A stretch of 64,000 nt of DNA from Candidatus Sumerlaeaceae bacterium (GTDB lineage Bacteria; Sumerlaeota; Sumerlaeia; Sumerlaeales; Sumerlaeaceae), in contig JAOAAY010000017.1 in assembly GCA_026418615.1 (NCBI GenBank), forward strand, positions 1 through 64,000, written 5' to 3'. Of this stretch, positions 31,771 through 55,328 are shown piece by piece (positions within the stretch are counted from its first letter, which is position 1; each line of letters opens with the position of its first letter). A program made the position numbers and the translations under genes. The notes under the pieces were generated by a model. It had not been told where the DNA came from. It did not search any database and saw only the letters and a program-made list of their open reading frames with translations.

Positions 31771-31998
31771 ATGACTGATCGCGAGTTTCTTGCCGGGTTG
31801 CAGCGATACCATACGCGCATCTGCAACATGATCTTTCATATGGACATCGAATGGATTGACATCGAGATCCAGATCAACGAAATGCGCGAATTTTGCCGCG
31901 AGCACTGCCCCGACAGGCTCGAATTGTTCGAAATGATCTACCCGAATCGTTTCCGCCGTCTGTTCGAGAGTTGGGGGCCGGAAAGCCGCGTGGGCTGA
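31771..31998 (+). CDS. Small acidic protein of unknown function upstream of pilus ATPase
   Basis: A 75-residue frame starts MTDREFLAGLQRYHTRICNM and continues with an amphipathic helical sequence (DIEWIDIEIQINEMREFCRE) ending in YPNRFRRLFESWG. The composition is protein-like and the codons are GC3-rich as in neighbouring genes. It lies 68 bp before the GspE-like gene on the same strand. There is no recognised family and no clear ribosome site; an in-frame TTG lies 15 bp upstream. It could be a small regulator or partner of the pilus locus, or a non-coding coincidence. Confidence 0.5.
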   Translation: MTDREFLAGLQRYHTRICNMIFHMDIEWIDIEIQINEMREFCREHCPDRLELFEMIYPNRFRRLFESWGPESRVG

Positions 31999-32066
31999 TC
32001 GTTTTTTTTCTCGTCGCACGCAAAAGTCGGCACGCCAATCCGTCTTTGGCCTTCGAAGGGGCTGAG

Positions 32067-33293
32067 ATGGCGATGTCCGAATCCCGCACAACCGAGGGCA
32101 TGGCTCTGCAAGAGCGCTTGGAGGCTTTGCGCGAGAGTGACAACTGGGCCGTCGAGGCTGCAGACCTTCTCTTAGGCGCGGCCTTTAGGTCCGCCTGCTC
32201 TGATCTCCATCTGGCGTGCGTGCGCGACGCTGTGGTTGTGCGCGGCCGGCGCGACGGCGGGTTTTTTGCTCTTGCGCGGATCCCAGCCGTGCGGCGCGAC
32301 CTGCTGATCGCCCGCCTCAAGGTGCTGGCCCGCGTGCCCGCCTTCATCCGCCACGAGCCGCAGGACGGCCGCATCGAGTGGCAGCCTCCGGATGCGGCCG
32401 GCCCCATCCTGCTGCGGGCCTCGTTTTTGCCCACGATCCACGGCGAAAGTATTGTCATTCGTTTTCCTGAACCGAGCGCGCGCCTGCTTGACCTTGGCGC
32501 TCTCGGCATGAGCGATGCGGTTTTGGACGCTGTCGAGGGGCTGCTGGCCCGGCAGGAGGGCACGCTCATGCTGACCGGCCCCAGCAGCAGCGGCAAGACG
32601 ACGACAATTTACGCCATGCTGTCGCGCCTGCACGAGCGGCGCGGCGACCGGCTCAATATCCTGACCATCGAGGACCCGGTCGAGCGCGACCTTGGCTTCG
32701 CGTCGCAGGTGCAGGTGAGCGAGCCGCAGGGGTTGACGCATGAGCGAGCCTTGCGGGCCGCGCTGCGGCAGGACCCCAATGTGTTGATGATCGGCGAGGT
32801 TCGCGACGCGGACACGGCGCGCGTCGCCATTCAAGCCGGCATGACGGGTCACCTCGTCATTTCCACGCTTCATGCGGGGCGAGCCTCCCGCGTGTTTACG
32901 CGGCTGCTGTCCATGGGTGTCGAGCCTTATCTTGTCGCCTCGGCGATGGCGGGCGCCGTGGCGCAGCGGCTGGCGCGTCGGCTCTGTCCGGCCTGCCGTC
33001 GTGTGGAGGGCGCAGCGGCGGAATGGACGGCCGGCGGGTGCGCGGAGTGCGACTTCACGGGTCACCGCGGGCGACGCGGCCTGTTCGAGGCCGTTATCGT
33101 CACCGAGGAGTTGCGCGGACTCATTTTAGCCCGCGCCACCAGTTCCCAAATTGCGGCGCAGGCCGCGCGCGAACAGGTGGGCGACCTCGTCGCCGAGGGT
33201 CGCCGGCTCGCCGACACCGGCGAGATCTCGCGTGCGGAGTTCGAATACCTGCTGGCCGGTGAGGAGGAGGAGATGACGCATGAACACGCCTAA
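32067..33293 (+). CDS. GspE/PilB-family secretion ATPase, compact form
   Basis: The 408-residue ATPase has all signature boxes: Walker A GPSSSGKTT (171-179), the Asp box ILTIEDPVE, Walker B LMIGEVRD (Glu244 region), the His box STLHAG (266-271), and a CPAC / CAEC zinc motif further on. The N-terminal PAS-like domain is short (SACSDLHLACVRDAVVVRGR), and the longer N1 domain of GspE/PilB is absent, giving a length nearer to PilT. The zinc motif, however, places it with GspE/PilB. It powers polymerisation of pseudopilins at the inner membrane. The ATG at 32067 follows AAGGGG; frames further upstream are not conserved. Its last 14 bp overlap the first GspF-like gene. Confidence 0.93.
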   Translation: MAMSESRTTEGMALQERLEALRESDNWAVEAADLLLGAAFRSACSDLHLACVRDAVVVRGRRDGGFFALARIPAVRRDLLIARLKVLARVPAFIRHEPQDGRIEWQPPDAAGPILLRASFLPTIHGESIVIRFPEPSARLLDLGALGMSDAVLDAVEGLLARQEGTLMLTGPSSSGKTTTIYAMLSRLHERRGDRLNILTIEDPVERDLGFASQVQVSEPQGLTHERALRAALRQDPNVLMIGEVRDADTARVAIQAGMTGHLVISTLHAGRASRVFTRLLSMGVEPYLVASAMAGAVAQRLARRLCPACRRVEGAAAEWTAGGCAECDFTGHRGRRGLFEAVIVTEELRGLILARATSSQIAAQAAREQVGDLVAEGRRLADTGEISRAEFEYLLAGEEEEMTHEHA

Positions 33294-34974
33294 GCCCGGC
33301 GACGGCCAGCGATCCATCTTAAACTATGACCTGCTGGATCTGCCGGGTTTGCGCTGGCTCAAACGGCGGTTCGGGTCTGCCGGTCCTGAAGCGCCGGTTT
33401 ATGACCTGTTCGATCTTTCGATCTTTCGCTGGTGGGTGTGGAAGTGGCGCTCGTTGATCATGGCCAACCTGAGGGTGCGCCGCGAGGCCAAGGCCGTGCT
33501 CTTCGGCGAATTGGCCGAGGCGTTGCGTCAGAAAATGCCGCTGCCCGAGGCCTTGGCTGCCAATTCGCAGACCCTTGAGGAATCTTGGCGGCGCAAGCGC
33601 CATGGCGTTGGGCGCGGCGCGGATTCGCGCCACAGCATCGTGCAGCGCTTCACGGCTCTGTTCATAGTCGGAATCGGATTCGTCGTGTTTTTGATTTACA
33701 CGGCACTGTCATTCCGCTACACTGATCCGGAGCGTGTCGCACGGCTTATGGCCAACCGCCTCCACAAACTTGTGGTGCGGGGCGTGCCGCTATCAGAAGC
33801 CATGCGCCGCTGCCACCCTGACTACGATCGCGCCGAGGTAGCCATCGTCGAGAACGCCGAGAAATGGGGCAACCTGCCCGAGGCGATCCAACGCCTCTCG
33901 GCCTATCAGGTGACGGAGAAAACCCTGACGGGCGCGGGCGTTAGCGCTATGTACCCGGTGATTCTGGCCTATGTCCTGCTGTTTCCTGTTGGGTTCATCC
34001 AGATCCTGCTGCTTCCCAAGTTTGCAGACATATATGTCCAACTGCAGGCCGATGTGCCCGCGTTGACACGGGCGCTCATGAACTTCAACCCCACGAGTTT
34101 CCCCATCGTTCTCGCCACAGTTGCCTGGTGGCTGCTTATCCTTTTCTGGATCGTCCGGGCTGTCATGAACGGCAACTTCATGGCTCGCTACATCATAGGT
34201 CTTGGCATCCTGAGTTTTGGTTTCTGGTTTGCCAGTCCCGGCGGTGTCCTTTTTCCGGTGTGGTGCGTCATGCCTTTGTTTCCGTGGGATTGGGCGACCC
34301 GACAACCCATCGTTGGAGTCATACCTCTGGTGTTGTTTTTCACCGCACTGATTATGCCCTACCTATTGGCCCGCGTCGAGGTCTGGATCTTGGCCATCGA
34401 ACGCGCCTCGGGTCGCCTGCTGCCCTGGCTGCCTTTTCTCGGCCGGACCCTCGGCAAGGCTGCTAAGGCCGAGGCTGACTCCCGTTGGCTTGCGGCGCTT
34501 AGCACGGCGCTGTCGGCAGGAGTTCCTGCTCCGGATGCCCTGCGGATGGCTGGAGCCACCGTCGGGGGTGTCTATCGTCGCCGCTCAGAGGCCGCGGCCT
34601 CGTTGGCCTTACAGGGTCTGTCCCTCGGCGGTGCCTGTGTTCGGGCTGGTGTGCTCGAGCCGCGCCTCAATCATCGTCTTGTCTTGGCCGATCGCAGCCC
34701 GCAGTTTATGAACGCGTTGCAGGCCATTGCTGAGGACGCCGGCGACAACGCGCAGCAAGTCCTCAGCCGCACCGCGCGCATCGCCGAGGTGGCCGGGCAG
34801 GTGCTTGTGGGCTGTGTCATGGCCGCCGCTGTGATCGCGATCTACCTGCCTCTGTTCAATATCCCGAGGATTTTCGCGCCCTTGAGTTCGCAGGCTCCGG
34901 TCATGAGGCCGTTCGCCGGCACCGTCGCATCTCATCCATCTGCAGATCCGCCTTTTGCCATACGGAGGGTATGA
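33280..34974 (+). CDS. GspF-like inner-membrane platform protein, enlarged
   Basis: The 564-residue membrane protein contains two PulF/T2SSF-type segments: an N-terminal one split by a membrane helix (LFGELAEALRQKMPLPEALA at 75-94, then MANRLHKLVVRGVPLSEAMR and VENAEKWGNLPEAIQRLSAY) and a C-terminal one (ADSRWLAALSTALSAGVPAP, with a degraded end ITDRSPQFMNALQAIAED-like). Between them is an unusually long membrane block with about six helices, including GFIQILLLPKFADIYVQLQ, typical of the GspF mid-region. It should form the platform around which the ATPase works. It overlaps gspE by 14 bp and is followed 3 bp later by a second GspF-like gene. Having two platform proteins in tandem is unusual. 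Confidence 0.8.
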   Translation: MNTPKPGDGQRSILNYDLLDLPGLRWLKRRFGSAGPEAPVYDLFDLSIFRWWVWKWRSLIMANLRVRREAKAVLFGELAEALRQKMPLPEALAANSQTLEESWRRKRHGVGRGADSRHSIVQRFTALFIVGIGFVVFLIYTALSFRYTDPERVARLMANRLHKLVVRGVPLSEAMRRCHPDYDRAEVAIVENAEKWGNLPEAIQRLSAYQVTEKTLTGAGVSAMYPVILAYVLLFPVGFIQILLLPKFADIYVQLQADVPALTRALMNFNPTSFPIVLATVAWWLLILFWIVRAVMNGNFMARYIIGLGILSFGFWFASPGGVLFPVWCVMPLFPWDWATRQPIVGVIPLVLFFTALIMPYLLARVEVWILAIERASGRLLPWLPFLGRTLGKAAKAEADSRWLAALSTALSAGVPAPDALRMAGATVGGVYRRRSEAAASLALQGLSLGGACVRAGVLEPRLNHRLVLADRSPQFMNALQAIAEDAGDNAQQVLSRTARIAEVAGQVLVGCVMAAAVIAIYLPLFNIPRIFAPLSSQAPVMRPFAGTVASHPSADPPFAIRRV

Positions 34975-34977
34975 ACC

Positions 34978-36024
34978 ATGAGTAGGCTGACTTGGAAGGA
35001 CACAGAACTTCTTGCGCGCGAGTTGGCGAGTTTCGCGCGGGCGGGCATTCCGATTCCCGATGGACTGCGACAGTTGTCGCTCTCGCTGAGCCCGGGCCCG
35101 CTGCAAAAACTGGCCCAGACAGTGGCGACGCAGGTGGAACAGGGCATGCCCCTGTCCGAGGCGTTGAGCGCGTCCGGCAAGGGCGTACGCAACGAACTCA
35201 TCGCCTTGGTGCGCTGCGGTGAAATGTCGGGCGACATGCGCGGTCTGCTTGATTTCGCCGTGGAGCACGCCCGGCGCATCGAGCGCCACCGCTCTGCGCT
35301 GCTCACCGTGCTGATCTACCCGGTGTTCGTTTTGGCCATGCTGATTTTATCCATGGCCTTCGTCTTTGCCACAATCATTCCGATCATCGAGATTAGGGTC
35401 GAGGAACTTGTTGGTATGGAAATACCGCGCCTGACCCAGATGATGATTGATCTCTCCCGGTTGTTGGACGGTCCGCTCGGTGTTGCCGTCCTCGCGATCG
35501 TGTTGCTGGCGCTCGCGGGTCTCTTATTCTCGGGCGCTTATCATGACTGGCTCCAGCGGGTTATCGGCTACCTGCCGGGTTTCGATATCCTCGTCTCTCT
35601 GAGTGACACGGCAGTCAGCATGAAGTTCCTTGCCAGTACCGTCTCCCGGGGCGTGCCACTGCCAGATGCCTTGGCGGCGGCGAGCCTCGCGGTGTTTACG
35701 ACGCAGTCGCGTACGATGCTGGGCAGCATGGCCAAGGCCGCCGCGCAGGGGCACAAGGTTGGGCCTATGCTGGCCGGACGAATTCCCGCCACGGCCGCCT
35801 GGCTTTTCCGGCAGGCGGAAGAGACAGGCTCGCTGGCTGCGGCATGCGCGGGCATCGCCTCGTATTGCGAGGATCGGTTCGACCGCGTCAGCAAGCGCAG
35901 CCTCGCCATCCTGGAGCCGGTCCTTTTGCTGTGTGTTTCCCTTGTCGTAGGAATTACCCTTTTGTCCATCTATTTGCCAATTTTCCGGATTCCCGGGTGC
36001 TACTTATTCGCGGGCACTGATTAA
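34978..36024 (+). CDS. GspF/PilC-family inner-membrane platform protein
   Basis: The 348-residue protein has the standard T2SSF plan: an N-terminal cytoplasmic domain (LARELASFARAGIPIPDGLR, VRCGEMSGDMRGLLDFAVEH), a membrane hairpin with LIYPVFVLAMLILSMAFVFA, a second cytoplasmic domain (SDTAVSMKFLASTVSRGVPL, FRQAEETGSLAAACAGIASY) and a C-terminal helix ending LLSIYLPIFRIPG. The length fits PilC/GspF (about 400) with a short N-terminus. It starts 3 bp after the preceding GspF-like gene. A degraded copy of its last 18 codons follows the stop. It probably works with the compact ATPase to assemble the pseudopilins encoded next. Confidence 0.92.
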   Translation: MSRLTWKDTELLARELASFARAGIPIPDGLRQLSLSLSPGPLQKLAQTVATQVEQGMPLSEALSASGKGVRNELIALVRCGEMSGDMRGLLDFAVEHARRIERHRSALLTVLIYPVFVLAMLILSMAFVFATIIPIIEIRVEELVGMEIPRLTQMMIDLSRLLDGPLGVAVLAIVLLALAGLLFSGAYHDWLQRVIGYLPGFDILVSLSDTAVSMKFLASTVSRGVPLPDALAAASLAVFTTQSRTMLGSMAKAAAQGHKVGPMLAGRIPATAAWLFRQAEETGSLAAACAGIASYCEDRFDRVSKRSLAILEPVLLLCVSLVVGITLLSIYLPIFRIPGCYLFAGTD

Positions 36025-36025
36025 A

Positions 36026-36079
36026 TCCTGGTCGGTAGGAATCACCATTTTGTCTATGTATTTGCCGGTTTTTCCAGAT
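36026..36079 (+). pseudogene. Remnant copy of a GspF C-terminus
   Basis: Directly after the GspF stop, in a shifted frame, bases 36026-36079 read SWSVGITILSMYLPVFPD. The real GspF ends SLVVGITLLSIYLPIFRIPG, so the two are nearly the same at protein level and clearly related at DNA level (GTAGGAAT-ACC-TTTTGTC). It is a leftover of a duplicated or recombined GspF gene end, now non-coding leader of the next gene. Confidence 0.8.
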
Positions 36080-36105
36080 TGCCGAGATCCATGGGGGCAT
36101 GCGAC

Positions 36106-36498
36106 ATGAACACGGAACAGACAACCCTTGGCAGTCGGCGAGCCATGACGCTGCTCGAACTGATGATCTTCCTGGGTGTGTTCTCGCTGCTGGCCGTTGC
36201 GACCATGCGTTGCATTGGTGACGGGCGCCTGCTGCGGGCTAACGCGCGCGACCGGTCGGTCATGACGGCCATCGCCCTGAGCGAATTGGAGCGTGCGCGG
36301 ACGATGCCTTCCAGCAACCTCAACGGCGGGCGCGTGGAGCGAAGCGATCCCTCTTGGCCATCAGGCACGGTAGCCGCAGTGGAACTCGCCCCGCGCCCCG
36401 ATGGCACATGGCTTTTGGATGTGACCGTCACGCGTGACGGCGCTGAGGGCCGACCTTCGGTTCGCCTCACCACAATCCGCCCCGGAGGCCCGTCATGA
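36106..36498 (+). CDS. Minor pseudopilin (GspI-like)
   Basis: The 130-residue protein has a type IV prepilin N-terminus: RRAMTLLELMIFLGVFSLLA, with Glu at position +5 of the mature pilin and a hydrophobic helix. The residue before the cleavage site is Ala14, not the usual Gly. The rest is short with a GspI-like sequence of strands. A GGGG element sits 8 bases before the ATG. The TGA overlaps the next ATG. Minor pseudopilins cap or prime the pseudopilus. Confidence 0.82.
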   Translation: MNTEQTTLGSRRAMTLLELMIFLGVFSLLAVATMRCIGDGRLLRANARDRSVMTAIALSELERARTMPSSNLNGGRVERSDPSWPSGTVAAVELAPRPDGTWLLDVTVTRDGAEGRPSVRLTTIRPGGPS

Positions 36499-37031
36499 GA
36501 GACTTTCAGCCCAAGGTTCGACGCCATGCAGGCTTCACCCTGATCGAAACTCTGATCGTCGTTGCGATGTTGGCCATCTTCACGGCCTCGTCGCTGGTGA
36601 TGGTGACCGCCCCGATGTACGAGCGCGTCTACGCAGACATCGAGGCACCGCGCGAGGCCGGGCTGGCGACTTTGCTGCCGGCGCTGGTGTCGGACGCGCA
36701 TGCGGCGGCCTCCGCCGAGGCGCCGGACGGCGCATTCGTCCTGCGGGGTGCGGCGCCGGGCGGCGACGATATCGCGTATTTTGTGGACACAGCGAAGCAG
36801 TTACGCCGGGCGCAGGCTTCGGCGGGCGCCTCTTGGGAGGATCTGCGCGGACGAGCGGCGGGCGCGGCACTGCTCGAAGACATCGAGGCGTTCTCGGCCA
36901 GCCACGACGAATCCGCGGGCCTCTGGCGCGTGACCTTGCGGACGGCCACGACGCGGCTCGGCCGGAAAATGAGCGCAGATCACACAATCACTGTGGCCGT
37001 CGGCAAGACTTGGGCGGGAGGTGGACGATGA
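36495..37031 (+). CDS. Minor pseudopilin (GspJ-like)
   Basis: The 178-residue product has a canonical prepilin signal, RRHAGFTLIETLIVVAMLAI (Gly13 cleaved before Phe, Glu at +5). The size and an Ala-rich soluble domain fit GspJ/PilW-type minor pseudopilins. It overlaps its neighbours on both sides as ATGA, showing that four consecutive genes (36106-38214) are read as one coupled unit. No Ca-binding DPWG motif is seen. Confidence 0.85.
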   Translation: MRDFQPKVRRHAGFTLIETLIVVAMLAIFTASSLVMVTAPMYERVYADIEAPREAGLATLLPALVSDAHAAASAEAPDGAFVLRGAAPGGDDIAYFVDTAKQLRRAQASAGASWEDLRGRAAGAALLEDIEAFSASHDESAGLWRVTLRTATTRLGRKMSADHTITVAVGKTWAGGGR

Positions 37032-37453
37032 AGACGATCACGGACTCTCTTGTCAGGTCCCGCACGACTCGTGGCACCGTGACCATGTTCGGCTTCGCGG
37101 CGCTCACGGTCATGCTCGGGCTGCTTTGCTCTGCTGTGCTTCTGCGGTCGCTCGATTCGTACGCGGCCTCGGGACGGGGCGAGATGCGCCTGCAAGCACT
37201 GGCTGCGGCGGAGGGCGCTGTGGTCGCGCTGCTCGCGGCCAACGGCGAGCCCACCACACAACCGCTGGCCTTGGGCCGTTGCCGGGTAACCTACGGCGAG
37301 GCACGCGCAGACGCCGGCGGACGCACCGTCGCTATGACCGTCCATGTGTATCGGACGGGTGAACGGCCGGCGCTGACTCAGCATTACCGGGCACGCCTCC
37401 TACCGCGCGGCGACGGCGGCTGGGGACTCGACCGGCTGGAGGTGGTCCCATGA
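37028..37453 (+). CDS. PilX/GspK-like minor pilus protein
   Basis: The 141-residue protein begins MKTITDSLVRSRTTRGTVTM and has one N-terminal membrane helix (FAALTVMLGLLCSAVLLRSL) that keeps a helical continuation with AEGAVVALLAANGE, as in PilX/GspK N-termini (RG-x-ALL... then AE). The prepilin Glu+5 is not evident, as in GspK/PilX variants. A longer same-frame ORF starts at 36434 inside the upstream gene, but the ATG at 37028 overlapping the previous stop is the real start. It is likely part of the pseudopilus tip complex. Confidence 0.72.
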   Translation: MKTITDSLVRSRTTRGTVTMFGFAALTVMLGLLCSAVLLRSLDSYAASGRGEMRLQALAAAEGAVVALLAANGEPTTQPLALGRCRVTYGEARADAGGRTVAMTVHVYRTGERPALTQHYRARLLPRGDGGWGLDRLEVVP

Positions 37454-38214
37454 ACGCATGCACTTCACGGAGGCGCGCTTTCACCTTTGTCGAACTGCTG
37501 GTAGCAGTCGTCATCGTGACTGTCCTCGCGGCCATCGGCGTGCCCAATTTTCTCGAGGCACAGTTGCGCTCGAAGAGGGCGGTTGTCCGTTCGGACATGG
37601 CCGTCATCGAGGCCGCGCTGCGCGCCTACTATGCGGACTACAACGAATATCCGTCGAACAACGCAGAATTGCGGGAGTTCAAACTGGCCGCCCTCGAGAT
37701 GACTACAACCGAGGTGCTCGCCATGGCCACCCCCTCCACGGCTACTGTGTCGTGGGGACAAAACGACCCGGCCTTCGCCAAGCGCCCCGGCAACTCAGCA
37801 TGGTTATTCCCATCTGGTCATGGTTTCGGGGAAACATATAATCCCGTGCTTGGACTCTCTGGATTTGATCTGAAAGTCCTGACAACGCCGATTCCATATC
37901 TCGCACGCGCTTTACCGCGGGATATCTTTCAGAGCGTTTCCGTACCGCCGATTTACCTTAGCCTCGCCGACCTTCCGCAAGATAAGCCTCCGGCCAAGGG
38001 GGTTGGGCTGAGACGCCGCTATATACTTGGCAGCGTCGGACCAGACGGCAGGTGGGGGGCGCGCATAGGCTTTATGATGGATCACCCAATCAAGGGACCA
38101 TTTATCCCGTACGATCCGACCAACGGGTCAGTCTCGGCGGGCGAAATTATCTCGTACGGGCATGGTGAGCAGGAGGTGGAGCCGCTGCCACCATTGGAGT
38201 CACCGGTTCCATAA
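37450..38214 (+). CDS. GspG-like (pseudo)pilin
   Basis: The 254-residue protein has a prepilin start RRRAFTFVELLVAVVIVTVL, with Ala at -1 instead of Gly, and a helix continuing into VPNFLEAQLRSKRAVVRSDM and EAALRAYYADYNEYPSNNAE, a signature shared by many GspG-like pilins of environmental anaerobes. The C-terminus has the family's YILGSVGPDGRWG segment. The canonical Ca-binding DPWG motif is not present. It may be the major subunit of this locus. It is followed by a 398-bp gap. Confidence 0.87.
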   Translation: MNACTSRRRAFTFVELLVAVVIVTVLAAIGVPNFLEAQLRSKRAVVRSDMAVIEAALRAYYADYNEYPSNNAELREFKLAALEMTTTEVLAMATPSTATVSWGQNDPAFAKRPGNSAWLFPSGHGFGETYNPVLGLSGFDLKVLTTPIPYLARALPRDIFQSVSVPPIYLSLADLPQDKPPAKGVGLRRRYILGSVGPDGRWGARIGFMMDHPIKGPFIPYDPTNGSVSAGEIISYGHGEQEVEPLPPLESPVP

Positions 38215-49103: not shown

Positions 49104-51362
49104 ATGAGGCTCGGTCACCGGGCGCGCGGTTCCACCTTCATACTGGTTCTGGCGCTCTTGTCCATACTGGTGTTTCTCGTGGCGGTGTTGTCGTACACCA
49201 CGCGCCTTGAGGGCATCACGAGCCGCAACTACGCGCAGGTGGTTCAGGCGCGGACGGCGGCGGCCACGGGTTTGCCGCTGGCTCTGTCGCTGACTGCGGC
49301 GGCGACCTCGGTGACGACGCCCATGCAACCGTGGCGTGTGGCGCCTCTGTTGACGAGCCTTCATGAGACGGCGGATCGCCCGGGCGGGCCGTCGCTGCTG
49401 GCTCAGGCCAACGCCCTGCCGTCGGGGCGTGCGTTGACGGATTTTCTAAAACATTCCAAACCGGACGACCCCCAGAGCACGATGGGGCTGCACAATGCGC
49501 AGGCTGTGGTGGCCATCGCCGACTTGTCGGGGCGCGTGAACCTCAACACCATTCGCAGCGAGGACGCGCTGGCGCGTTTCTTAGTGGCGGCGTTCTCGGA
49601 AAGCGGCTCGGTGCCCATGGACGCGCAGACGGCCAAGCGTCGCGCGCGGGCGGTCATGGCGTGGCGCGGAAATCTGGACGAGACCACAACCGCGGCTCTG
49701 GCCGGCGACCCGCGCACGACGGCGCCGGAGAACTTCCGCCGGCTTGGCAGTGTGTATGACCTGATGGCAGCGAGCACGCAGCCGGCCAGCGACCTCTTCA
49801 CCGGGGCGGAACTGGCCGTACTGGCGGCCCATACCACGGTGTTCTCGCAGGCGCCGGAGGTTTACACGCGTCCCGACGGCACCTCGATGCCGCGCGTTCC
49901 GCTGGCGGGGCTCACCGCCCGTAGGGCGTGGCGGGCTCTGTCACAGGCTTTCCCGAAGCACGACCCGCGGCTGCTGATGCAGTTTGCGGCCAATGTCGCG
50001 GATTTTTCCGACACGGACGATGTGCCGACGATCGTCACAGATCCACAGCATCCGCAGCCATGGAATGCCATCCTTGGCGTCGAGCAGACGCCGCTCATCA
50101 CGGAGGTTTACCCGGACGCCACGCCCGGGTTGGAAGGCGACGACAGCGGCCAGTTTGTCGAGATCCACAACCCGTGGGCTAAACCGATGGTCTTGCGCCA
50201 GTGGCGGCTTCTGGTGGGTGCGACGACCGGCGCGGGCGGCGTGACGATCAACGCCGTCATACCGCCCAACGGTTTCCTGATCCTCACGGACAACTACGAT
50301 AATCCCTCGGAGCAGGCTCCGTCCGGGACGGGATCCTTCCTGTCCGTTTTTGGGGCGCGCAAGGACGACAATCTGCGCCAGTTGGTCGAGAGCCGCTCGC
50401 TATCGTTGCCGGACGAGAATTCCTTTGTCGCGCTGGTGGATGGCGAGGGCCACCTGATTGACATTTTCAGTTACACCTCGGCTGCGGGAGCGGACTCGCG
50501 CCAGAGTTACCAGCGCGACGACCCGCGGGTCCGCGCCTTTGGTGTGGCCGAGGCGTCGCCCTTCTCCAACGGGCCGACAACTGTTTACAAGGGATCCGGC
50601 GAGGCGCTGGCGGTGATGCGCCTTGCGTGGGAGAAAGGCAACCGCCCGCTCGCTTCGGCCGTGGACTTGTTCCGGGTGTCGTCCGCTTATGCGGGGCTGC
50701 GTGGCTCAGGCCAACGGGTCCTGTTCGCCCCCCGGGGCTGGCAGATGCCCGAGTACAAGGCCGCGGATGACGCGAACCCGTCGAATCTCGACGCCCGACT
50801 GCTCGATATTTTTACGACGGTTGCTCCGGCCGAGCAACTGGCCGACGCGGCAACGACCCAGACCGGGGAATCCGCCACGACCGGCCCGCTCGTTGCTGCC
50901 GCACCGGAGGGCGGGACGAACGACGACGAGGAACCGACGCAGACGCTGCTGTACTCGTATGGCAAATTGAATGTGAACACCTGCGTGAAGGCGGCGCTGG
51001 CTTCGTTGACGGGTGGCAAGGACACGCCCGAGGCGGCGCCGCCCGCGGTGATGGAGCGGATTGAGGCCCACCGCCGCAACCGTCTGGCCCGCGGGGAAAC
51101 CCCTTTCCTCACTCCCAGTGAATTCGTGCTGATGCTGGTGCCGACGCTTAAGACCGAGTCCGACGCGGAGACGATCGCGGCGCTGCTGGAGCAGGTGACA
51201 GTCGGCTCGACCTCGTTTGAAGTGCTGTCAGAAAATCTTGCGAATCCGTCTGCTTTGCGCGCCGCGCCGGGTGCTGTGCCGGGCGCGAAATCCCGCATGG
51301 CGTGGATCGTGGCGTTGGACCGCCAGCCATTCAGCCTGATCGGCTATTCCGTGGAGCCCTGA
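49104..51362 (+). CDS. GspK-like minor pseudopilin with inserted lamin-tail (LTD) domain
   Basis: The 752-residue protein begins MRLGHRARGSTFILVLALLS, a GspK/PilX-type N-terminus without the prepilin Glu, then a helix in which RNYAQVVQARTAAATGLPLA corresponds to the AE-containing helix of GspK. GspK-type SAM-like parts are visible at SGRVNLNTIRSEDALARFLV (about 135-155) and GKLNVNTCVKAALASL (about 620). Residues about 329-455 resemble a lamin-tail domain (LITEVYPDATPGL, GQFVEIHNPWAKPMVLRQWR, INAVIPPNGFLILTDNYDN), inserted in the middle. LTDs are often extracellular modules that bind DNA or other ligands. It heads the second pseudopilin locus. The GAGG ribosome site is close to the ATG. Confidence 0.82.
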   Translation: MRLGHRARGSTFILVLALLSILVFLVAVLSYTTRLEGITSRNYAQVVQARTAAATGLPLALSLTAAATSVTTPMQPWRVAPLLTSLHETADRPGGPSLLAQANALPSGRALTDFLKHSKPDDPQSTMGLHNAQAVVAIADLSGRVNLNTIRSEDALARFLVAAFSESGSVPMDAQTAKRRARAVMAWRGNLDETTTAALAGDPRTTAPENFRRLGSVYDLMAASTQPASDLFTGAELAVLAAHTTVFSQAPEVYTRPDGTSMPRVPLAGLTARRAWRALSQAFPKHDPRLLMQFAANVADFSDTDDVPTIVTDPQHPQPWNAILGVEQTPLITEVYPDATPGLEGDDSGQFVEIHNPWAKPMVLRQWRLLVGATTGAGGVTINAVIPPNGFLILTDNYDNPSEQAPSGTGSFLSVFGARKDDNLRQLVESRSLSLPDENSFVALVDGEGHLIDIFSYTSAAGADSRQSYQRDDPRVRAFGVAEASPFSNGPTTVYKGSGEALAVMRLAWEKGNRPLASAVDLFRVSSAYAGLRGSGQRVLFAPRGWQMPEYKAADDANPSNLDARLLDIFTTVAPAEQLADAATTQTGESATTGPLVAAAPEGGTNDDEEPTQTLLYSYGKLNVNTCVKAALASLTGGKDTPEAAPPAVMERIEAHRRNRLARGETPFLTPSEFVLMLVPTLKTESDAETIAALLEQVTVGSTSFEVLSENLANPSALRAAPGAVPGAKSRMAWIVALDRQPFSLIGYSVEP

Positions 51363-51471
51363 AACGACTGTGGACAAGCGCTTATTGACCACTCACGAAT
51401 CTTTGCGTTTGAGGATGGGCGGGTTGACACTGGAGCAGAGGCGTCATATACGACACGCGCGAACCGCAATC

Positions 51472-52278
51472 ATGGACAAACATCGTCAACATAGGATCAG
51501 AACCAGCCGCCAGAAGGGTTTCACGCTCGTGGAAATGCTGATCGTGGCGGCCCTGATCGCCCTGTTTGCCGGGCTCGCCGTGATCAACATCCAGCAACAA
51601 TACGAGTTGAACAAACAGAAGGCGTCGGTCGCGGAGTGCCGCCAGATCGGGACGGCCATGACCTTTGCGCTTCAGGATCTGGGTTTCTTCCCGAAAATCT
51701 GTTTCCTGCGGTTCAACTATAATATGTTGGTCAACCGCATCCAGACGCTGCCGCTGGACCAGTTTGAATACCACGGGCTTCCGGTGGGCAATATCGTGAC
51801 CCGCCTGACCAATCAATGGAGCCGGCAGGGGCAGTACGCAGCATTCAATTTCGACAAGTTGGCTTACATGCGGATCCCGGGGGATCCGGGTGAGCCCTAC
51901 GAGTGGCCGGCCGACCCGTGGCGCAACCCGTATGTGGCGTACTTCGTTCAGACCCAGCGGGATCCCAACAGCCTCAATGTGACGCAGCGTTTCATCAATC
52001 GTTCGGGTGAAAAGGCGGACTACTTCGCGGGCATCGTCAGTTACGGCCGCAACGGGGTGCCCGGTCTGACGGAGTCGCCGCAGGCTGCAGATCTGGCGGC
52101 TCGCAAGGATCTGCGGCTGTACAAGGAGACAGGGCAGTTCAATGTGTATCTGGCGCTGACGCCGGCGGAGTACGACGCGGCGCGTGTGTCGCAGATTGTG
52201 GCGGAGCCGGCCAATCCTGATCCGGCGCGGCCGCGCATCCGCGACACGGGATCCGATGACCGGTATTTTGAATTCTGA
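51472..52278 (+). CDS. GspG-like pseudopilin 1 of locus 2
   Basis: The 268-residue product has a prepilin signal RQKGFTLVEMLIVAALIALF (Gly16 then Phe, Glu at +5). It ends with a C-terminal domain containing the DPWRNPYVAYF element (a variant of the GspG Ca-site loop DPWGNPY) and GIVSYGRNGVPGL. Its soluble domain is much larger than classical GspG (about 140 residues in total). The ATG at 51472 is chosen because upstream residues do not look like a leader; a GTG at 51370 is possible. It lies 110 bp after the GspK-LTD gene, and the next pseudopilin gene starts 26 bp downstream. Confidence 0.85.
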   Translation: MDKHRQHRIRTSRQKGFTLVEMLIVAALIALFAGLAVINIQQQYELNKQKASVAECRQIGTAMTFALQDLGFFPKICFLRFNYNMLVNRIQTLPLDQFEYHGLPVGNIVTRLTNQWSRQGQYAAFNFDKLAYMRIPGDPGEPYEWPADPWRNPYVAYFVQTQRDPNSLNVTQRFINRSGEKADYFAGIVSYGRNGVPGLTESPQAADLAARKDLRLYKETGQFNVYLALTPAEYDAARVSQIVAEPANPDPARPRIRDTGSDDRYFEF

Positions 52279-52303
52279 GGGAACGAGGTTGGGACTTCGA
52301 ATC

Positions 52304-53110
52304 ATGAAAATGATCGGCACAGCCGCTTTCTCCCCCGGCGGGAGTTTCCGCGGTCGCCCGGCGGCGCGGCGGGGCTTCACTGCGATCGAGATCGCCATGG
52401 TGGCCACCGTCATCGCCATCTTCGCGCTGCTCGTGCTGCCCCTGTTTCGCAATCGCGTGGAAGAGGCGAAGATCGCTGCTGCACGCGCCGACCTGACAAG
52501 CCTGATGAAAGCCGAGCAACTGGTGAAGGCCGACACGGGCTATTTCGTGAGGCTGGAGGACTTGGACAACATCGAGTTGAACCTTCCTGGCCAGCCCAAC
52601 CCGACCCCGCCGCCCAACGGTATCACCCTGGAGGTTCCGCCCTTTTACTACCTTGAGGCTCCGCCTTCGAGCCGGGCGCCCCTGACGGTGCCCGAGTGGA
52701 TTGCCTTCGCAGGCACCACGAGCAAGCCCAAGTTCCGCGGGCCTTACATCGCGTTCCAAAATTCGCTGCGCTACGGCGACCTTTTGACCCGGCCCGAAAA
52801 TCAGCAGTTGGCAAACAATCTGCTGCGCAGCCGCACGGGCAACCCGGCCAGTGCCATCTTTGACATTCCGACCGGACCGTTGTTCGATTCGCTTGAAAAC
52901 CGCATTCCCGTGGATCCGTGGGGCAACCCGTACCTGTTTTTCCCCGCCACGGGAGAGACGGGCTTTGCCAGCAGCGTCATATACTCGCTGGGGCCGGACG
53001 GTCTGCCGGGTCTGCTGAACGGCACATCACCGAATGACTTCCTTCGGGGGACGCCCAACGGCCTCGGCACGCTCGATCCCAATGTGGATGATCTTCAGGT
53101 TCAATTTTGA
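52304..53110 (+). CDS. GspG-like pseudopilin 2 of locus 2
   Basis: The 268-residue product has a leader of 24 residues ending RRG before FTAIEIAMVATVIAIFALLV. The helix continues into FRNRVEEAKIAAARADLTSL. The C-terminal part has IPVDPWGNPYLFFPA and VIYSLGPDGLPGL, shared with its neighbours. A TTG 15 bp upstream fits the ribosome site better than the ATG and would add five residues. It belongs to a tandem family of paralogues here, probably made by duplication. Confidence 0.85.
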   Translation: MKMIGTAAFSPGGSFRGRPAARRGFTAIEIAMVATVIAIFALLVLPLFRNRVEEAKIAAARADLTSLMKAEQLVKADTGYFVRLEDLDNIELNLPGQPNPTPPPNGITLEVPPFYYLEAPPSSRAPLTVPEWIAFAGTTSKPKFRGPYIAFQNSLRYGDLLTRPENQQLANNLLRSRTGNPASAIFDIPTGPLFDSLENRIPVDPWGNPYLFFPATGETGFASSVIYSLGPDGLPGLLNGTSPNDFLRGTPNGLGTLDPNVDDLQVQF

Positions 53111-53115
53111 GACGG

Positions 53116-53859
53116 ATGCGTAAAGACATGACAGCCATCACAGCCAAACGGAGTCAGGGCGGTTTCACCGTTCTCGAACTCCTGATCGCAGTGATCATCA
53201 TCGGCATCCTCGTGGCGATCATTGTGCCGGTGTACACGGACCGAGCCGAGCAGGCACGCCTGACGGCCGCGCAACAGGATCTCGACGCGCTCAAGACGGC
53301 CCAGGAGCACGCGGCGATCGACACGGCCTATTTCTACGCTTTGTATGTGCTCGATGATGTGCGCGATTTTGACGGCGTGCCGTCGAGCAATCCCAATGAC
53401 CGCACCGACGGCATCCGCGATGAGGTGTTGCGCACGGATATCTCTGGCGACCCGAGGCGCATCTTCATTGATACGACTTCGGGGCAGGTGCCGGCCGGGT
53501 TTGCGACCATCTTCTCGCAGATCCAGACCAGCGAAACGAACTTCAACTGGAACGGGCCCTATGTCAATTACACGCGGCGCTCGTTGCCGGGCGAGTTCAC
53601 GGATGTTCCTGCTGACATGCCGCTCGACCCGTGGGGACGCCCCTACCTGTTTTTTACCAAGGACGGCTACTTCAACCCGCGGACACTGACGATAGACAAT
53701 CAGGTCACGATCAACGGCACCACGCTCTTGGGCGACGCCACCATCTTCGACCGGCCCACGGTGCTCTCGCTCGGCGCGGATGGGGCGTCCGGCGGGATTG
53801 TGAACGGAGTCCAGAACAACAATTTTGGAACAGGCGACGACCTGTTCCGGCAGTTCTGA
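53116..53859 (+). CDS. GspG-like pseudopilin 3 of locus 2
   Basis: The 247-residue protein has a canonical signal GGFTVLELLIAVIIIGILVA and the helix VYTDRAEQARLTAAQQDLDA. In the C-terminal half it has MPLDPWGRPYLFFTKDG and LSLGADGASGG. It starts 6 bp after the preceding gene. Of the five it is the closest to a classical GspG in its helix. A second ATG four codons on (53128) and a TTG at 53107 are alternative starts. Confidence 0.88.
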   Translation: MRKDMTAITAKRSQGGFTVLELLIAVIIIGILVAIIVPVYTDRAEQARLTAAQQDLDALKTAQEHAAIDTAYFYALYVLDDVRDFDGVPSSNPNDRTDGIRDEVLRTDISGDPRRIFIDTTSGQVPAGFATIFSQIQTSETNFNWNGPYVNYTRRSLPGEFTDVPADMPLDPWGRPYLFFTKDGYFNPRTLTIDNQVTINGTTLLGDATIFDRPTVLSLGADGASGGIVNGVQNNNFGTGDDLFRQF

Positions 53860-53867
53860 GAAAGGAC

Positions 53868-54635
53868 ATGCGGCGTCTCATGACACAGTACCGGACCAAC
53901 GGCACCCGCGGCGTGACGCTGACGGAATTGCTCGTCGTGATGGTCATCATCACGCTGCTCTCGACACTGATTCTCCTCGTGTATGTGAACCGCATGGAGC
54001 AGGCGCGCATCAGTGTTGCCACCGGCGAGTGCCGCGAGTTAGCCCACGCGCAGGAAATGTGCGCCCTTATTCATGGCTACTATGTGCCGCTTCAGGTGCT
54101 CGACGACCGCCCAGCCATCACCGGTGTGTCGTCCGTCGGCGATGTCATCACCTTGGAAGACTTGAGCAACATTCGGCTTGTCCATCCGCTGATCCCGCCG
54201 CAGTTCCAGCAGGGCAACCAGCCCACGCTCGCCAGCGACCTGCCCCGTATCCGCGAGATGCGCCTGAATTGGCAGGGACCGTTTACGAACATCCAGCGCG
54301 CCTATGTGGGCAACGAGGATCCGCGCGATCCAAACTTCCAGAACTCGCCAACGGTGCGGCTGGACTTCCCGCTTGATCCGTGGGGCAATCCCTATCGCTT
54401 CTACTCGCCCATTGGCATCATTGGCACCAATGCCAACCGCACCGATTACACCAACCTGACAATCAGTTTCAGTGACGGTTTGATCACGACCCAGGACGAT
54501 CGCAACTTTGAGCGCTACGCGATCGTCAGTTGGGGCCGCAATAATGAGTCAGACCTCAACACGCCAACCGACCGCGATGACATCATTCACTTGTTCGGGT
54601 CGGGCGGTGTCGAATCGAACTTTGCCCTGCCGTGA
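53868..54635 (+). CDS. GspG-like pseudopilin 4 of locus 2
   Basis: The 255-residue protein has the signal TRGVTLTELLVVMVIITLLS, with Val in place of the usual Phe at +1 and Glu at +5. The helix VNRMEQARISVATGECRELA follows. Near the C-terminus are FPLDPWGNPYRFYSP and AIVSWGRNNESD. It starts 9 bp after the previous stop, with AAAGGA nearly touching the ATG. The C-terminal segment is close to that of its neighbours, supporting a common ancestor. Confidence 0.86.
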   Translation: MRRLMTQYRTNGTRGVTLTELLVVMVIITLLSTLILLVYVNRMEQARISVATGECRELAHAQEMCALIHGYYVPLQVLDDRPAITGVSSVGDVITLEDLSNIRLVHPLIPPQFQQGNQPTLASDLPRIREMRLNWQGPFTNIQRAYVGNEDPRDPNFQNSPTVRLDFPLDPWGNPYRFYSPIGIIGTNANRTDYTNLTISFSDGLITTQDDRNFERYAIVSWGRNNESDLNTPTDRDDIIHLFGSGGVESNFALP

Positions 54636-54725
54636 CGGTAGTCAGCGCGGCGGGTATGGGCTATACTTTTGCAGGGCTAACAAGAAGGTAATTCAGGCGG
54701 TTAACGAACCGGGAGGCTTAACAGG

Positions 54726-55328
54726 ATGAAGGGCAACAAGGCATTTACTCTGATCGAACTGCTGGTGGTGGTTTTGATCCTCATGCTGCTGGCCACCATC
54801 GCGGTGGGCTTGTACATCCGCGAGATGGAACGGGCACGGTACGCGGTGGCCAAGAGCACCATCAGCGAAATAGAGCGCGCAGCGGCCCGCTACGCCCTCG
54901 ATATGAGCGCCTATCCGCCAAGCCTGAGCCTGAATCCCAGCCTCAACAGCAGCGTGGCAGCCTCTGGCGGCGGTTGCGGTTACGCCGAGGAGGCCCTGCT
55001 TCACAGCATCGGCGGCAGCAGCACGGCCCCAAGTGATCCGCGGTGGGGCGGGCCCTACCTGACGATTAAAAACGAGATGCTCGACACGACAGGCGGCCCG
55101 GGCGATGTGCAGATCCTCGACCCGTGGAAGCAACCCTACCGGTTTGTCCGGCGCAACGACTACGCCAACTTTGGCACGCGCCTGCCCGCCGGCCACCCGT
55201 ATCAGGCCACAGAAACCTGGTACAACCCCAGCACGGTTCAGATTATTTCCCGAGGCCCCAACGGCGTCACTCTGAGCGATCCAAATTTCGGGCGTGACAT
55301 TGACGATGTCTCGAACTTCGGACTCTGA
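54726..55328 (+). CDS. GspG-like pseudopilin 5 of locus 2
   Basis: The 200-residue protein has a very short leader (MKGNKA) then FTLIELLVVVLILMLLATIA. The residue at -1 is Ala, not Gly. The helix YIREMERARYAVAKSTISEI is followed by RAAARYALDMSAYPPSL, the GspG-type AAxxYxxDxxxYP pattern. C-terminal markers are LDPWKQPYRFV and IISRGPNGVTL. The ribosome site GGGAGG is about 10 bases upstream. This is the last gene before the terminator and the smallest of the set, so it may be the major subunit. Confidence 0.9.
   Translation: MKGNKAFTLIELLVVVLILMLLATIAVGLYIREMERARYAVAKSTISEIERAAARYALDMSAYPPSLSLNPSLNSSVAASGGGCGYAEEALLHSIGGSSTAPSDPRWGGPYLTIKNEMLDTTGGPGDVQILDPWKQPYRFVRRNDYANFGTRLPAGHPYQATETWYNPSTVQIISRGPNGVTLSDPNFGRDIDDVSNFGL

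Follow-up and report, generated by a model that had tools for sequence, protein, structure and literature searches.

The gene at positions 49104 to 51362 on the forward strand of the window (the whole stretch of 64,000 nucleotides that was analysed), part of the metagenome-assembled genome (MAG) of an uncultured Sumerlaeota bacterium, encodes a GspK-class minor pilin whose head has a lamin-tail domain (LTD) built into it. The presence of the LTD in this GspK is ancestral, and the architecture is an old one, kept across the class of bacteria to which the genome belongs and beyond. We propose that the protein, called LTD-GspK here, forms the tip of a retractable, type IVa-like pilus, where its LTD serves as a tip receptor or adhesin (probability about 0.6). 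With it, the pilus could probably take hold of a target outside the cell. What a pilus binds depends on its tip minor pilins, and beyond the well-studied species, to our knowledge, few tip receptors have been described. Present in nearly all genomes of its class, and also in other lineages without cultured members, LTD-GspK would be a conserved receptor on the surface of bacteria that are known almost entirely through metagenomics. It would also give the lamin-tail domain of bacteria a concrete function that can be tested.

The open reading frame (ORF) is intact and encodes 752 amino acids, starting at the ATG at 49104, which has a GA-rich stretch before it, and ending with a TGA whose last base is 51362. 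Scans for promoters and terminators gave nothing useful. The end of a prepilin-type leader (RGS) and a long hydrophobic N-terminal helix (RGSTFILVLALLSILVFLVAVLSY; residues 8-54, positions 49125-49265) are conserved in A1, an alignment of 28 homologues. A GspK beta strand and a first alpha unit with the motif NLNT follow (residues 134-242, 49503-49829), and then an extra helical unit (residues 255-310, 49866-50033; helices at 272-282 and 288-302 in the predicted model), the LTD (residues 329-472, 50088-50519) and a segment that leads to the C-terminal half (residues 473-616, 50520-50951; low AlphaFold2 confidence at 578-609). The protein ends with a second GspK alpha unit, with the motif NVNT, and C-terminal beta strands (residues 617-752, 50952-51359). 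The extra helical unit may be a degenerate duplicate of the first NxN alpha unit, as judged from a profile comparison of units 1 and 2 that reached a probability of only 65%. Units 2 and 3 were rejected as repeats of each other (4%).

The LTD motifs named in the original prediction, EVYPDATPG, GQFVEIHNP and PPNGFLILTDN, are present at residues ~334-396, and NLNT (146-149) and NVNT (623-626) flank them as it had described. LTD-GspK alone matched the Pfam LTD model PF00932 at residues 331-458 (profile positions 9-108 of 109) with E = 5e-5 and 24 bits, which is below the curated cut-off of 34.3 bits. In the whole-genome search, the E-value of this match was 5e-6. Each of the 28 members of A1 matched PF00932 independently (best 1.7e-12), and a chance similarity was therefore rejected. 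The LTD columns were among the best conserved along the family. A phmmer search of PDB sequences with the single LTD-GspK sequence found no match.

The AlphaFold2 model of LTD-GspK, built on A1, had a mean pLDDT of 81 and a pTM of 0.81. It contained a multi-stranded beta domain at residues 331-470, mostly of high confidence, in addition to the long helix at 8-54 and GspK-like alpha units and strands. When the whole model was compared with the PDB by Foldseek, the top 14 matches were the Ig folds of lamin A/C and lamin B (3gef: E = 3e-5, probability 1.00), followed by XcpX/GspK entries (9a1f, 6utu and 5vtm, with 3ci0 slightly lower). The superposition was loose, with an rmsd of about 5 A or more, so the likeness to lamin is at the level of the fold. 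The model of a homologue from an Elusimicrobia-titled contig (L068; pLDDT 82, pTM 0.78) had XcpX/GspK as its best matches, followed by lamin folds, which it matched more weakly than LTD-GspK did. In the predicted structure, segment 329-472 is a lamin-type Ig beta sandwich, in line with the PF00932 match.

The frame around the LTD has the prepilin leader, the N-terminal helix, the two NxN alpha units and the fold of a GspK. The NCBIfam model for GspK, NF037980, matched 27 of the 28 A1 members (best 3e-23), and the Pfam models T2SSK and T2SSK_1st matched 14 members each. Alignment of A1 by hhalign with P0002, the canonical GspK of the same genome, gave 98% probability over residues 4-242, which takes in the beta strand and the first alpha unit. 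In a profile search of PDB sequences, XcpX (5vtm) was matched at 53-127 and at 174-204, on both sides of the insert, the latter match corresponding to the second alpha unit and the C-terminal strands. The XcpX matches and the P0002 alignment together indicate that ~370 residues, comprising the helical unit, the LTD and the following segment, form an insert that separates the two alpha units of GspK. The score of LTD-GspK against NF037980 (26 bits) was under the 130-bit equivalog cut-off, but no match in the 41 genomes passed this cut-off, canonical GspKs included, so it does not discriminate here. The original prediction of an LTD embedded in a GspK-like frame, which had staked itself on both the LTD fold and the frame, was thus borne out by sequence profiles, hhalign, AlphaFold2 and Foldseek, with both found.

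The inserted domain is not a one-off but widespread. Among 39 genomes of the class, the present one included, homologues were found in 37; the match spans the LTD in 34 of the 39, and the remaining three genomes have N-terminal matches in short frames. A contig scan with the single sequence gave nothing, whereas an alignment-based scan found relatives beyond the class, with the same order of parts on contigs (from MAGs) titled Omnitrophota, Elusimicrobia, TA06, UBP4 and PVC. In a second alignment, A2, 17 of 18 members matched the LTD, and 31 of 35 genomes in the phylum of L065 had a strong match to A2. Counts of phyla need caution because L065 has a different record title from L060 and L068, yet all three belong to one phylum. 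A recent insertion by a mobile element was rejected: the insertion point is identical across the class and beyond, and a plasmid search for LTD-GspK gave no match. In many A1 members (L013, L014, L017, L018 and L020, for example), acidic repeats such as DDDGD and DNDGDG lie between the first alpha unit and the next, and are absent from the LTD-GspK of the window. These repeats represent a possible calcium-binding insert.

Five G-type pilin genes follow LTD-GspK on the same strand. G1 (ORF 51370-52278, probable start about 51472) encodes a GspG/GspH-type pseudopilin with matches to N_methyl and to GspH/GspG-type models. G2 (52304-53110 from its probable start, ORF from 52184) encodes a GspG-like pilin matching T2SSG, and G3 (53107-53859), G4 (53868-54635 from its probable start, ORF from 53631) and G5 (54726-55328) encode further GspG-like pilins with pilin profile matches. 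The order in the window is K-G1-G2-G3-G4-G5, without H-I-J upstream. In the most complete loci (L041 and the UBP4 locus L058), it is PilB-PilT-PilB-PilC-H-I-J-K(LTD)-G1-G2-G3-G4-G5, with an extra gene after K in L058. Partial versions of this arrangement occur at L050, L051, L055 and L057. The G1-G5 genes of the window and of 11 other Sumerlaeota loci match those of L041 one-to-one and in order, apart from an occasional second G5, while the G genes of L058 match them in part. Thus, five different G-type pilins (51472-55328 in the window) are kept in fixed order across Sumerlaeota loci. The PilT proteins of L041 and L058 exceed the curated NCBIfam cut-off (435 and 464 bits vs 319), the I-type protein of L041 matches the PilV model, and four K members of A1 match PilX_N.

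PilB, PilT and PilC adjoin K only in the loci of other species. In the window's genome, relatives of all the partners, H-I-J included, (33-66% identity) are on other contigs, with H-I-J together at C11, PilT and PilC at C29, and PilB-type ATPases at C29 (59%) and C34 (66%). Their pairing with LTD-GspK therefore rests on orthology. PilM and a secretin were found at C113 of this genome; PilN, PilO and PilP were not confirmed. One study of Sumerlaeota reported twitching dependent on type IV pili for every MAG that it covered (PMC8092238). Another group of loci (L060-L076) has H-I-J-K(LTD) without an adjacent ATPase or PilT. In that group, H-I-J-K(LTD) adjoins two surA-like genes, pdxA and ksgA, as assigned by sequence resemblance and not by profile, in an arrangement that resembles the surA-pdxA-ksgA order of E. 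coli.

PilY1 (PF05567) was matched in none of the 41 genomes, a result from one Pfam model on genomes many of which are incomplete MAGs. The same search gave a match in a Myxococcales genome used as a control. This supports, as far as sequence models go, the absence of PilY1 from the 41 genomes.

These genes suggest the following mechanism. A prepilin peptidase would process LTD-GspK, which would then join the H-I-J minor pilins in a tip complex that starts the filament; the homology to GspH-I-J-K and the conserved H-I-J-K gene order point to this step. PilC and the PilB ATPases, the genes of which are present, would extend the filament from G-type pilins of five positionally conserved kinds. 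Lying between the two alpha units of GspK, the LTD would be carried at the outermost tip, by analogy with XcpX/GspK. There it may bind a protein, a glycan or a surface outside the cell, acting as a receptor built into the tip, where other type IVa pili have the PilY1 that was undetected here. PilT, a member of whose family is encoded both in the complete loci and in the window's genome, would retract the pilus and so pull on the bound ligand or deliver it.

Instead, LTD-GspK might be the tip of a T2SS-like periplasmic pseudopilus, with the LTD recognising secreted substrates or the secretin and not a ligand outside the cell. The frame is that of a GspK and the G genes are GspG-like, as this explanation expects. 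Moreover, the L060-L076 group has its H-I-J-K beside surA-like genes with no PilT adjacent, so that the machine there may be T2SS-like, and the genome encodes other LTD enzymes that look secreted. However, the same genome has a separate canonical T2SS locus at C58, with GspE, GspF, a GspJ-like protein, a secretin and a GspK that lacks an LTD. This GspK is a separate paralogue, and LTD-GspK was rejected as the canonical T2SS GspK; it lies outside this operon, in a locus where K is accompanied by the five G-type genes. Of the pseudopilus tip bearing an LTD that was first predicted, the GspK-class tip protein with an LTD is supported. PilT and PilB accompany LTD-GspK in the most complete loci, and with PilT and PilB/PilC among its syntenic partners, LTD-GspK is more likely to belong to a retractable pilus of the type IVa kind than to a T2SS pseudopilus. 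We regard a T2SS-like pseudopilus tip as rather improbable, though the best of the alternatives.

The window contains a second type IV filament set at 31893-38214, with a PilB/GspE-like ATPase and two T2SSF/PilC-like proteins, and a pilin with an N-terminal methylation-type motif is found near it, at 37450-38214. This set is distinct from that of LTD-GspK.

DNA, or another extracellular ligand, had been suggested as a target of the LTD. A precedent is ComZ of Thermus thermophilus, a tip pilin resembling GspK, whose beta insert binds DNA (PMC6561018); a comparable tip could serve natural transformation here. LTDs have been linked to DNA binding (PMC4486849) and occur on nucleases, one of them in this genome, and ComEC-type competence proteins were found in 36 of the 41 genomes. 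ComEC is common, however, and not specific evidence. In each of the 28 homologues the LTD has a negative net charge (-4 to -23, median -11.5), although ComZ also has no obvious positive patch. In line with the occurrence of LTDs on surface nucleases and adhesins that the original prediction cited, the other LTDs of the genome are on secreted-looking proteins with signal-like N-termini, namely an endonuclease I, an alpha-amylase and a smaller protein. One of the three being an amylase, the LTD is not tied to DNA in this organism. DNA binding by the tip was thus not supported, and we consider it distinctly unlikely; a plausible ligand would be some extracellular molecule other than DNA. That the LTD is only a structural or assembly spacer in the tip, without any ligand, is very improbable. 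In favour of it, most of the invariant LTD residues, which include E353, N356, P357, W367, G390 and D453, look like general LTD core consensus and not like a family-specific site, but the family-conserved GDDGQ, TDDYD, GSFYDIF and SxQRxDPxVR may point to a maintained surface.

LTD-GspK shares with the T2SS GspK/XcpX proteins (3ci0, 5vtm, 6utu) the N-terminal pilin helix, a beta strand with an NLN alpha unit after it, a second N(V/I)NT alpha unit and C-terminal strands, and most of its relatives have H, I and J as neighbours. It differs from them in the extra residues between the alpha units, in its location outside the T2SS locus of the genome, and in scoring below the equivalog cut-off. ComZ is likewise a GspK-like tip pilin whose head has gained a large beta domain, and a role as a tip receptor has been proposed for it (PMC6561018). 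In ComZ, the inserted domain is a DNA-binding beta-solenoid that lies between the last strand and the one before it, whereas the insert of LTD-GspK includes an acidic LTD between alpha units. Modular pilins such as PilB and PilC of Streptococcus sanguinis also carry a functional module, likely for display at the tip, but C-terminal to the pilin and not inserted in it (PMC8179133). Bacterial secreted LTD proteins, nucleases among them, are exported and have PF00932 in common with LTD-GspK; they are enzymes or surface proteins and not pilins. The type IVa tip complex FimU-PilV-PilW-PilX-PilY1 is similar in having H-I-J-K type minor pilins together with PilB, PilT and PilC. In the present system, PilY1 was not found, the K subunit itself bears the extra domain, and there are five conserved G-type pilins.

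LTD-GspK has the architecture of a modular tip pilin, with putative tip display and binding. The kind is already known, as in ComZ, and the LTD variant appears to be new: in the open-access literature on lamin-tail domains with GspK, pilins or type IV pili, we found no description of it. A survey of modular pilins lists 264 architectures (PMC8179133). It searched IPR012902, the Pfam member of which (N_methyl) does not match LTD-GspK, and therefore this architecture may have been missed there, although it may be in InterPro. We tentatively suggest that Sumerlaeota and several other uncultured lineages possess an undescribed class of type IV filament, in which a tip pilin with its own lamin-tail receptor would replace PilY1, and the shaft, in Sumerlaeota, would draw on five separate, ancient GspG-like pilins conserved one-to-one.

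The three other LTD proteins of the genome are encoded at L096:3624-5039, L097:4283-7093 and L098:4428-8837 (contigs C60, C68 and C64, respectively). Each has a short C-terminal stretch of aromatic or charged character (QWWLY, SRFRLD or MMWEIY), which might be a sorting signal.
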